From Oenococcus oeni DSM 20252 = AWRIB129 (GTDB lineage: Bacteria > Bacillota > Bacilli > Lactobacillales > Lactobacillaceae): a stretch of 64,000 nt of DNA. Positions 13,539 through 27,910 of this stretch are shown here, piece by piece (position 1 is the stretch's first letter; every line of letters starts with the position of its first letter). The translations under genes and the position numbers were made by a program. The DNA lies in NCBI RefSeq assembly GCF_000372485.1, contig NZ_AQVA01000001.1, positions 124,001-188,000 of the forward strand, written 5' to 3'. The notes under the pieces are model-generated. The model had not been told where the DNA came from. It worked only from the letters and a program-made list of their open reading frames with translations, and did no database searches.

Positions 13539-14236
13539 ATGGAGAAAAATTTACAGAACGAACTTAAAAAAGAAGCCGCCATTCGGGCAGCTGAATTTGT
13601 TGAAAACGATACTGTTGTTGGCCTAGGTACTGGATCAACAGTCAAGTTTTTGGTTGATGAGTTGGGACGGAAGGTTAGAGAAGAAAATTTATCCTTTACC
13701 GGAGTGACTACTTCTAAGAGAACTGCTTCTCAAGCGGAGTCTTTGGGAATTAAGATTGTCAGTCTTGATTCAATTCCACGGATTGATCTGACGATCGATG
13801 GAGCCGATCAGGTTGATAATAATTTCAATGGGATCAAGGGTGGGGGAGCCGCTTTGCTGTGGGAAAAAATCGTTGCCACAAATTCTAAAAAAATATCTGG
13901 ATTGTCGACCAATCCAAGCTGGTCGACAGAATTGGAAGCTTTCCGCTTCCGGTTGAAGTTATTCCCTTTGGTACTTTACATGTCTTAAATAAATTCGAAG
14001 AGCTCAATCTCAATCCGGTTTTGAGATTGACGGAAAATGGAAAGAAAGTCATGACTGATTCCCAAAATTATATTATCGATTTGCATTTAAATCAGATTAT
14101 TGATCCGGCCAAGCTTTCCAATCAATTGATTAATACAGTTGGCGTGGTTGAGCATGGATTATTCTTAAATGTAGTCGATAAGGTTGTTGTTGGCAAAAAA
14201 GGCCAACCCCTCATTCTGGAAAATCCCGATAAATAA
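13539..14236 (+). pseudogene. rpiA: Ribose-5-phosphate isomerase A, frameshifted
   Basis: RpiA interconverts ribose 5-phosphate and ribulose 5-phosphate. Residues 1-116 are normal: GLGTGSTV phosphate-binding loop, TIDGADQVD and KGGGAALLWEK. The frame then breaks at the A7 tract 13887-13893. With one more A the frame continues as KKNIWIVDQSKLVDRIG and FPLPVEVIPFG, ending in GVVEHGLFL. Without it the first frame stops at 13988 and the second half is read only from about 14021. The repaired product would be 232 aa, the normal RpiA length. Either a recent mutation or a homopolymer sequencing error. It is divergent from rbsK, in keeping with ribose use. Confidence 0.9.
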
Positions 14237-14358
14237 TCAAAGCCAAAAGTATTTATATATTTTTTTGTTTTTTGTTTAATCTTCGTCTTCTTTTGTGTGT
14301 ATAATTATGCAATTTAATTTTCATTTTATGAAATGAGAAGGAAGGAGATTAAAAAACA

Positions 14359-25148: not shown

Positions 25149-25883
25149 TTAAAAACTCTCGGTCGGAATTCCATCGAGTTTTGCCTGCCAATCGATATCC
25201 GGATAACGTTTAAGAAGCGCATTTTTTAAAATTCTTTTTGCTAGATTACCGTTGCGCGTCAAAATTGGACCGTGAAAATAAGTCCCATAGACTTGTTTAT
25301 AGATAACGCCTTCGGTTTTATCGTCGCCATTATTGCCATTGCCGGATACGACCGTTCCCAGAGCTTTTTCGCCTTTGCCAAGGAAAGTCCTTCCCTGATG
25401 ATTTTCAAAGCCGTGATAAGTTTCGCCGCTTTCGTTGTTTTTGATTTGGATATTGCCAATCAAGCGTTTCCCGCGCATGTTATCAAACAATTCGGAAGAA
25501 TTCAAATTAACTGTATGATGGCTCATTGCTCCAATTCCGTTAATTATTTTTCCGTTAGCAAATTCCATTGTTGTTCCAAGCAGCTGAAAGCCGCCGCAGA
25601 CAGCAACCAAAGAACCATTATTTTCGATATATTTTTTTATTTCATCCGATTTGCTGGGCAGGTCTTTTGCAGTCACCGATTCCTCATAATCTTGGCCACC
25701 ACCGAAAAGAACAAAGTCGTAATCGTCGGCTTTAAAGGAGTCCCCAAGTGAAATTAAATGGTAATCGGTTTCAACCTGAATTTGTTTGGCATAATATTTA
25801 ATCGCAATCACATTTCCGTAATCACCATACGTATTCATCAAATCCCCATATAGATGAGCAATTCTCAGTTGATAATTTTCCAT
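25149..25883 (-). CDS. gatD: Lipid II isoglutaminyl synthase, glutamine amidotransferase subunit GatD
   Basis: 244 aa class I glutaminase. The nucleophile elbow is VAVCGGFQLLG (Cys96) and the His is in GTYFHGPIL (His204), as in the CobB/CobQ-like GatD. It releases ammonia that MurT uses to amidate D-Glu of lipid II. Its ATG overlaps the murT stop at 25883, so the two subunits are co-translated. Confidence 0.93.
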   Translation of the reverse strand: MENYQLRIAHLYGDLMNTYGDYGNVIAIKYYAKQIQVETDYHLISLGDSFKADDYDFVLFGGGQDYEESVTAKDLPSKSDEIKKYIENNGSLVAVCGGFQLLGTTMEFANGKIINGIGAMSHHTVNLNSSELFDNMRGKRLIGNIQIKNNESGETYHGFENHQGRTFLGKGEKALGTVVSGNGNNGDDKTEGVIYKQVYGTYFHGPILTRNGNLAKRILKNALLKRYPDIDWQAKLDGIPTESF

Positions 25884-27244
25884 TAAAAACTCTCCTTCGC
25901 CAAACCGGCTTTGGCCAATTCTTCACGAAACATCAACATACTTGTATAAGTTGCAGCGACATATACGTTTTTGGTTGGCAACCCTTTGATTCGGTCGATT
26001 AACTTGGCAAAATCCTGTTCGACAATTTGATTTTTAAAGCCTGCCATTTTTAGTCGAACACTGAAGTCTTTATAACGCTGTCCGCCTACAATAATTTTTT
26101 TCAGGGCCGTCTGGTGTAGCTTTTCGAATTCAGCATCGAAGATCCAACTTGTGTCGATACCGTCGGCATAATTAGCGTTTAGTAAAGTTACCAAACTGAA
26201 TTCTTCCGGATCGGTCATCATCATATCGATTACAGAGTTAGCTCCAACCGGATTTTTTATCAAAACAATCGTAACCAAGTGGCTGCCAATTGTTAATTGT
26301 TCCTGACGACCAAAAATTCTTGAATCTTCGTTTAAAGCATTGAAAATATCTTCAGCGGAAATTTGGAATTCCCGTCCTAAAGAATAAGCGGCCAAAGCAT
26401 TATAAATATTATAAAGACCGCCCAGCGGTAATGTGAATTTATTTCCAGCTATTTCAAATTCCGATTTCGATGGAGTTAATGAATTAATTTTGTTCACCGA
26501 GTATTTGAGTTGTGGCCGTTTGAAAGAACCATCTTTTGTGAAATAATCTCCAAGATTGGCATATGTTAAGTAATGATAGTGGAGAACCTGGTCGTTAGTC
26601 GGTGCCAGTACTCCATCGGTATTATTTGGAGCACGCAGGTCGCCAGCTGATTTTTTGTGGGTGAAACCAAAATAAACAGCTTGATTTTTATAGGGCTTTC
26701 GAGCAAAGATTGGTGAATCCCCGTTGGCAACGACCTTTGCTTTTGGTGCAGTTTTGATTCCGTCTGTTATTTTTTCGTAAGTTGTATATATTTCGCCGTA
26801 TCGATCCATTTGGTCGCGAAAAATATTTGTCAAAACAAAATGAGTTGGCTGTAAGATTTTTGCAACTTCTTTTACATTGGCTTCATCGACTTCTAATACT
26901 GCAATCGGAATCGTGCCGTGACGAATTGATTTTTTAATTTTGTCTTTCTGGGAAAGTAGAGCGGCGACAATTCCTTGAATCATATTTGAACCGGAATTAT
27001 TTGTTACAACGACACGATTTGTTTTTTTAAGAACTCTTGCGCAAAGAGCAGTTGCCAACGTTTTACCGTTTGTACCGCTCACAATTACCGTTTCAATCTG
27101 ATCGCGAAATTCTTCAAGAAAAGTTGGATCAATCCGATAAGCGATCTTGCCCGGAAGCGAAGTACCACCGCGATGGAGAATTTTATGTAAAAGTATGTAG
27201 CTGCTTGAGCCGGCAAACAAGGCAAATTTGCTTCTAATAGTCAT
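25883..27244 (-). CDS. murT: Lipid II isoglutaminyl synthase, Mur ligase subunit MurT
   Basis: 453 aa from ATG 27244 (TTG 27250 also open). Mur-ligase ATPase site VSGTNGKT and central domain are intact, as are the C-terminal DUF1727 motifs (LLNANYADGID, YVAATYTSML). It activates the D-Glu carboxylate for amidation by GatD ammonia. MurT proteins normally carry a four-Cys zinc ribbon in the centre; the aligned stretch (about residues 210-248) here reads APTND and YFTKDGSFKRP with no Cys. There is no Shine-Dalgarno site: a TATAAT at 27251-27256 (minus strand) is only 6 nt from the ATG, so the mRNA is probably leaderless. Confidence 0.9.
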   Translation of the reverse strand: MTIRSKFALFAGSSSYILLHKILHRGGTSLPGKIAYRIDPTFLEEFRDQIETVIVSGTNGKTLATALCARVLKKTNRVVVTNNSGSNMIQGIVAALLSQKDKIKKSIRHGTIPIAVLEVDEANVKEVAKILQPTHFVLTNIFRDQMDRYGEIYTTYEKITDGIKTAPKAKVVANGDSPIFARKPYKNQAVYFGFTHKKSAGDLRAPNNTDGVLAPTNDQVLHYHYLTYANLGDYFTKDGSFKRPQLKYSVNKINSLTPSKSEFEIAGNKFTLPLGGLYNIYNALAAYSLGREFQISAEDIFNALNEDSRIFGRQEQLTIGSHLVTIVLIKNPVGANSVIDMMMTDPEEFSLVTLLNANYADGIDTSWIFDAEFEKLHQTALKKIIVGGQRYKDFSVRLKMAGFKNQIVEQDFAKLIDRIKGLPTKNVYVAATYTSMLMFREELAKAGLAKESF

Positions 27245-27250
27245 AAACAA

Positions 27251-27285
27251 ATTATAGACTAGCCGAAAAAGATGATTGATATAAT
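27251..27285. promoter_or_regulatory. Divergent murT / tdk promoters with -10 boxes next to the start codons
   Basis: Minus strand: TATAAT (27256-27251) ends 6 nt before the murT ATG. Plus strand: an extended -10, TGATATAAT (27277-27285), ends 7 nt before the tdk ATG at 27293. No good -35 is seen for either. Both transcripts would start at or near AUG. Confidence 0.55.
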
Positions 27286-27292
27286 TAGGGGC

Positions 27293-27910
27293 ATGACACA
27301 GCTATTTTTTGAGTACGGTGCGATGGGTTCCGGAAAGACTATTGAAATTTTAAAAGTTGCCCACAACTATGAGTCACAAGGCAAAAAAGTCTTGTTAATG
27401 ACTCCGGCGGTTGACGATCGGGCAGGTATCGGAGTTATTTCCAGCCGAATCGGTCTGAAAAGAGAAGCGATTGCTATTCATAAAACGGACAATTTATTTA
27501 CGGAGGTTTCAAGAGTCGATGGAGAACTTGCTGCCGTTTTAATTGATGAAGCCCAATTTTTAGAACCATTTCAGGTTGACCAGCTGGCTGATGTTGTTGA
27601 TAAGCTTAATATTCCGGTGATGACTTTTGGATTGCGCCAGGATGCTTTCAATCATCTTTTCCCTGGGTCGAAACGGCTTTTTGAAATCGCTGACAAACTT
27701 GAAGAAATGAAAACGATTTGTACTTTTTGTGAAAAAAAGGCAATTACTCAGTTACGTGTCGTTGATGGCAAGCCTCAGTATCAAGGCAGCCAGGTTTTTA
27801 TTGGCGGAGACGAAACTTATATACCGGTTTGCCGAAAACATTGGAAAAACCCAGATCTCAAAAAGTTGAAAGAATTTTTTCCGGCAAACAAAAAAGTATC
27901 GAAACAGTAA
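27293..27910 (+). CDS. tdk: Thymidine kinase
   Basis: 205 aa from ATG 27293; an ATG at 27272 is in frame but MTQLFFEYGAMGSGKT is the family start. Salvages thymidine to dTMP. Walker A GAMGSGKT, the lid/active-site stretch VLIDEAQFLE with catalytic Glu, and a zinc site (CTFC and VCRKH) are present. The downstream terminator overlaps its last codons. Confidence 0.95.
   Translation: MTQLFFEYGAMGSGKTIEILKVAHNYESQGKKVLLMTPAVDDRAGIGVISSRIGLKREAIAIHKTDNLFTEVSRVDGELAAVLIDEAQFLEPFQVDQLADVVDKLNIPVMTFGLRQDAFNHLFPGSKRLFEIADKLEEMKTICTFCEKKAITQLRVVDGKPQYQGSQVFIGGDETYIPVCRKHWKNPDLKKLKEFFPANKKVSKQ

Follow-up and report, generated by a model that had tools for sequence, protein, structure and literature searches.

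The MurT protein of Oenococcus oeni DSM 20252 keeps the framework of the zinc-ribbon insertion and lacks all four of its cysteines, a state that it shares with one group of the Lactobacillaceae. We consider it very probable that the protein is a normal, functional MurT from the Leuconostoc/Weissella/Oenococcus branch of that family, in which the insertion has no metal site and is predicted to be metal-free yet structured. The cysteine loss has been in print at genus level since 2018 and is mostly ordinary. The passages of Morlot et al. 2018 (PMC6085368) that bear on it state that the Cys tetrad is replaced in Oenococcus, Weissella and Leuconostoc, and word the replacement as serine/aspartate pairs. 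The earlier note on this DNA had taken the loss to be special to one copy; its finding is thus already published for these genera, and the loss is common to nine genus codes. Morlot et al. was the only publication on a Cys-less MurT found in a non-exhaustive literature search. What is added here is a test of single origin, a longer list of genera and a second erosion in the core of Oenococcus; the further clade genera, together with deletions and partial losses outside the clade, are small additions to the published statement.

The murT-gatD pair and its substituted ribbon

The window is the whole 64,000-nucleotide stretch analysed, from a genome of 1,737,581 bases. The features discussed below, in window coordinates, are as follows.

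25883..27244, minus strand: murT, lipid II isoglutaminyl synthase subunit MurT, 453 aa from the probable ATG
25149..25883, minus strand: gatD, glutaminase partner, an open reading frame with a GATase_3 match of 128.5 bits and a one-base overlap with murT
26510..26659, minus strand: zinc-ribbon-like insertion, window residues ~198-247 against S. pneumoniae 187-236, limits taken from the structural account in Morlot 2018 (PMC6085368)
26594..26605, minus strand: first knuckle, A-P-T-N for C-P-x-C, from the alignment
26528..26539, minus strand: second knuckle, T-K-D-G for C-x-x-C, from the alignment
26699..26701, minus strand: Arg184, just before the insertion and Arg in every row of the Cys-less clade; a lead rather than an established part

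The listed murT open reading frame (25883..27250, minus strand, 455 aa) opens at TTG 27250. The true start is probably ATG 27244, because residue 3, which is encoded by an ATG, is where the alignment with 6fqb_A starts, and the murT loci of relatives likewise show ATG at this place. Both the Mur ligase middle domain (PF08245, 47.4 bits against a cut-off of 24) and the MurT C-terminal domain (PF08353, MurT_C, 120.4 bits against a cut-off of 25) are present, and phmmer against PDB sequences matched the protein to the MurTs of S. pneumoniae (6fqb_A, E 5.4e-113) and S. pyogenes (9sq9_A, E 8.1e-112). The NCBIfam MurT equivalog NF045635 is covered over profile positions 1-441 of 447 at 486.9 bits, below its cut-off of 800, so that this model alone would leave an intact protein unnamed. 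Since the cut-off is a threshold for naming and no biological feature, we retained the name MurT. The closest named MurT is that of O. kitaharae (78% identity); identity to the window's MurT is 78 to 93% in four other Oenococcus genomes and 62% in a fifth.

The residues K59, N85, D112, E113, D136, R140 and D355 are invariant in 27 chosen MurTs including the window's (numbering of L150, equal to that of S. pneumoniae by our count on the 6fqb_A alignment). In the S. pneumoniae enzyme, mutation of K59, N85, D112/E113, D136, R140 or D355 lowers activity, according to the mutagenesis passages of Morlot et al. 2018 (PMC6085368). The partner GatD retains its catalytic Cys and His, as the earlier note had read, at Cys96 and His204 in the alignment. 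In 143 aligned GatD rows, the catalytic Cys is present in 142 and replaced by Gly in 1, and the His is present in all 143. The tdk gene diverges from the murT-gatD pair.

Aligned with 6fqb_A, the S. pneumoniae ribbon cysteines C205, C208, C227 and C230 lie opposite window A216 (26603-26605), N219 (26594-26596), T238 (26537-26539) and G241 (26528-26530), and the window's protein therefore has none of the four Cys in two CxxC knuckles that define a Cys4 zinc-ribbon MurT. All four substituted codons fall within 26501-26620, and the framework of the insertion (NTDG, HY, TYANLG and RP) is retained. This agrees with the earlier description of a kept framework in which every Cys is replaced, with one Cys elsewhere in the protein, which we locate at residue 70. 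A zinc ribbon elsewhere in the window's MurT was rejected because this is the single Cys of the whole protein. General cysteine loss, which had likewise been discounted from the sequence, was also ruled out: AccD keeps two CxxC pairs, Tdk keeps Cys143, Cys146 and Cys180, and the non-tetrad Cys per MurT, counted on stop-to-stop open reading frames, are similar in number, with means of 0.53 in Cys4 Lactobacillaceae (n=103) and 0.6 in the Cys-less clade (n=50).

Distribution and origin of the Cys-less state

We read 238 genomes overall and took MurT from 325 loci, which gave 302 distinct sequences and, with the window's own, 303 alignment rows in which the window is counted twice (as 'win' and L037). 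At the four ribbon columns, the full CCCC set occurs in 243 rows, two or three Cys occur in 5, and 55 are Cys-free. Such an alignment, proposed in the earlier note as a check, shows that the Cys-less state is no oddity confined to a single sequence: 51 of the 303 rows (the window twice) are substituted, and all of them belong to one Lactobacillaceae group. The other 4 Cys-free rows have no ribbon altogether.

Genome sampling was uneven, and the counts by family are to be read as counts of the genomes covered. For the Lactobacillaceae, 89 of 201 family genomes were read; all 42 in nine genus codes are Cys-less and all 47 in the other 31 are CCCC. The 149 genomes from 55 other families are all CCCC save for losses in three families: f5 (4 partial Cys losses among 14 genomes read), f7 (one partial loss and one deletion among 3) and f107 (ribbon deleted in 3 of 3). 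Among 80 named loci, 66 are CCCC and 14 Cys-less, the latter from Oenococcus (1), Leuconostoc (3), Weissella (3), Fructobacillus (3), Convivina (1) and Lactobacillaceae MAGs (3). The order-level search matched 335 of 395 genomes, from which 30 loci and 30 hand-picked genomes were read, many of these chosen for weak matches; the phylum-level search matched 135 of 398 genomes, with 30 loci and 80 fetched regions read.

Four MurT-like proteins (L294, L298 and L311 of family f107, and L173) lack the entire ribbon. A GATase_3 open reading frame adjoins the ribbon-less MurT of L298. In the 3.3 kb L173 locus, phmmer gave no match to GatD at 1e-5, and the one other open reading frame of at least 100 aa is LysR-like by eye; for these reasons the L173 protein may not be a partner of GatD.

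We built a tree of 82 MurTs with the ribbon columns excluded, after thinning the Cys-less rows at ≥93% and the others at ≥70% likeness and excluding rows from outside the order. The 34 Cys-less rows lie on one side of a branch of length 0.36 with SH-aLRT 100, and one change from Cys to none suffices when gap rows are not counted. Treating the gap rows L170 and L173 as a separate group raises the number of changes for the Cys4 label to 3, as against 1 without them. The tree was made by a quick method with SH-aLRT in place of bootstrap support; 30 of its 79 inner branches are open, one joining of long branches was flagged, and the long rows flagged are L171, L173, L170, L175, L147 and L174. On this sequence evidence the Cys-less MurTs form one clade, which a single loss fits.

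The tetrad that stands in place of the cysteines is S-D-S-D in 40 of the 50 clade rows, and SxTD occurs at both knuckles in 34. Five rows have SNSD, SDSS, SDST or SDSQ, and the remaining five form the Oenococcus core, window included, with ANTG, ANTA, ADTG and, twice, ADTK. The named rows of Leuconostoc, Weissella, Fructobacillus and Convivina belong to the same clade and share the window's Cys loss; they carry Ser-Asp-Ser-Asp, whereas the Oenococcus core does not. The core is nested within the clade (SH-aLRT 99) beside the Oenococcus genome G400, which has kept S-D-S-D. As judged from these sequences, the core has changed again, from Ser-Asp-Ser-Asp to Ala-(Asn/Asp)-Thr-(Gly/Ala/Lys), and the published serine/aspartate wording therefore fits the clade and not the window.

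No MutS1 match over the cut-off was detected in 7 Oenococcus genomes (G000 and G395-G400, two of them 65-68% complete), which gave a weaker match only, in contrast to 5 of 5 relatives with a match over the cut-off. This agrees with the mutS-mutL loss stated for O. oeni in the relevant passage of a published study (PMC6498615). Faster mutation may have helped the second tetrad change in Oenococcus.

Predicted fold, function and competing readings

The AlphaFold2 model of the window's MurT has a pLDDT of 90.2 and a pTM of 0.90. Ten-residue blocks of the insertion have pLDDT values of 82-96, and ribbon strands are predicted at 222-226 and 232-235 (model numbering, two below that of the window's open reading frame), with Cys4 relatives present in the input alignment. 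That alignment held 67 sequences, namely 66 tree rows and the window; the divergent rows L147, L163, L164, L169, L170, L171, L173, L174 and L175 were left out, as were L070, L156, L166, L179, L183 and L184, two of which have partial Cys loss. The ribbon of the model may be carried over from Cys4 relatives, both those in the alignment and those in AlphaFold2's training set. The model supports a ribbon predicted to fold without Cys, and in doing so leans on these relatives.

We compared the model with known structures using VIA-align 2, which gave Z 42.2 and rmsd 2.7 over 381 residues of 383 for 6fqb_A, and Z 44.7 and rmsd 2.5 over 394 residues for 9sqj_AAA. The MurTs of S. pneumoniae (6fqb) and S. 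pyogenes (9sq9 and 9sqj, for which our literature search identified no publication) have the same fold, catalytic residues, insertion framework and gatD partner as the window's, with rmsd 2.5-2.8 A over 381-400 residues; unlike them, the window has A, N, T and G for the four ribbon Cys. The S. aureus MurT (6gs2, 6h5e, 7q8e) is the same enzyme, and zinc was seen in its Cys4 ribbon, as the structural description in Noldeke et al. 2018 (PMC6113224) has it, whereas the window has no Cys4. Its structures align with the model at 33% identity and rmsd 7.3-7.7, the rmsd perhaps reflecting a different domain angle.

We propose that the tetrad was probably lost once in the clade, with mostly Ser-Asp-Ser-Asp taking its place; the tetrad of the Oenococcus core then changed again, and the insertion kept its framework. 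The insertion would fold in the absence of zinc: hydrogen bonds in Ser/Asp (or Thr/Asp) turns, along with packing against the middle domain and GatD, would hold it in shape, and it would remain part of the MurT-GatD interface. Amidation of lipid II without zinc is plausible from the sequences and the model. The section of a 2014 review that treats amidation (PMC4155827) puts D-Glu amidation close to 100% for four lactic acid bacteria, Oenococcus not among them.

Apart from the model's reliance on Cys4 relatives, two results count against a metal-free, working MurT, one being the NF045635 score (486.9 against 800 bits) and the other the defects of the S. pneumoniae 4C4S protein, in which the four Cys are changed to Ser. 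The passages of Morlot et al. 2018 (PMC6085368) on this mutant report 23 +/- 10 % activity in vitro, altered association with GatD and instability in storage, and state that it was not tolerated in vivo, the cells being not viable; the authors judged the protein probably destabilised and deferred the role of zinc to later work. Given this low activity and the lack of viability, the clade has presumably adapted in other ways to the Cys loss.

We regard it as unlikely, and not fully exclusive of a metal-free, working MurT, that the insertion is an idle loop, degenerating because selection on it is relaxed, and that missing mismatch repair favoured this in Oenococcus. The second knuckle does drift (position 241 is G/A/K in the core, and four further rows of the clade have Q, S or T), MutS1 is below the cut-off in the 7 Oenococcus genomes and above it in the 5 relatives, and the ribbon is deleted in the 3 of 3 f107 MurTs read and in L173. 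However, N210, T211, D212, G213, L215, P217, L223, Y225, G234, F243, R245 and P246, twelve framework positions, are fixed in 50 of 50 rows of the clade, and G400 (65% complete), also without MutS1 over the cut-off, still has S-D-S-D.

Rather doubtful is the idea that the zinc ribbon became a Ser/Asp ribbon, with SxTD at both knuckles, that uses a hard metal such as Mn or side-chain/main-chain hydrogen bonds together with the fixed Arg184, and that Oenococcus then dropped even that. If true, it would give a natural series of Cys4, Ser2Asp2, no polar tetrad and, with the ribbon-less MurTs of other families, deletion, all in a single enzyme, one that other species cannot live without.

It seems quite improbable that the Ser-Asp-Ser-Asp tetrad is a site for another metal with a preference for oxygen ligands (Mn, Mg or Ca) and that this site, too, disappeared later in the Oenococcus core. 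These bacteria are rich in Mn, and the replacement is an ordered one (S/D/S/D in 40 and SxTD at both knuckles in 34 of 50 rows), but two Ser and two Asp would make a weak metal site. Within the clade, conservation at the four columns that once held ligands is no more than average (0.82-0.94, with a median of 0.84 over columns 30-445). Core Oenococcus rows retain at most one of the four residues, and the window's gene is still open with gatD beside it. That murT is decaying and inactive in Oenococcus is hardly credible: the 4C4S result in S. pneumoniae (not viable, in the same passages of PMC6085368) would be in keeping with it, but murT is open and in frame, retains its catalytic residues and gatD, and encodes a protein that shares 78 to 93% identity with MurT from four other Oenococcus genomes.

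With a working, metal-free MurT as the preferred reading, the Cys-less clade is a natural control for the role of the MurT ribbon, as it lives without the Cys that S. pneumoniae needs. The graded states Cys4, Ser-Asp-Ser-Asp, Ala-Asn-Thr-Gly and deleted would permit tests of zinc need, stability and GatD binding. Beyond the ribbon question, the Cys loss is a detail of one enzyme family.

Compensation candidates and neighbouring observations

Arg184 is Arg in 50 of 50 Cys-less clade rows, whereas 101 of 103 Cys4 Lactobacillaceae rows have Ser or Thr at this column. Over the whole alignment, where the region aligns loosely in distant rows, Arg occurs in 5 of 243 Cys4 rows, in 0 of 5 partial rows and in 3 of 4 ribbon-deleted rows (the three f107 MurTs and not L173). 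As a partner of the lost tetrad, Arg184 is a lead only. A comparison of the clade (50 rows) with Cys4 Lactobacillaceae (86 rows) shows differences at ten GatD columns, F57, Y22 and N126 among them. Compensation by GatD gained no support from these: by hand numbering, none of the ten is a ribbon-facing residue in the list given by Morlot et al. (PMC6085368).

Between the two divergent genes murT and tdk (27244-27293), hexamers resembling a -10 element lie right at the starts. On the murT side, TATAAT ends 6 nt 5' of the ATG in 6 of the 6 Oenococcus loci shown, with no clear Shine-Dalgarno sequence; among the other relatives shown, murT has a clear Shine-Dalgarno sequence in about 10 of 15 by eye, L150 not being one of them. 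On the tdk side, also by eye, TATAAT ends 7 nt 5' of the ATG in 5 of 6 loci, and the sixth has TATACT at 6 nt. The window's tdk has AGGGG between the hexamer and the ATG, which is not conserved in the other loci. TATAAT at 5-9 nt before a candidate start is found only for murT, tdk and 40955 among the 61 open reading frames of the window. This arrangement suggests that murT and tdk may be a pair of leaderless transcripts; among the publications listed, none has leaderless transcripts of Oenococcus oeni in its title. Elsewhere in the window, rpiA (ribose 5-phosphate isomerase A, 13539-14300) has its start and its remainder in different frames, with Pfam matching the first part only, and looks broken, whether by a true mutation or by a draft error.
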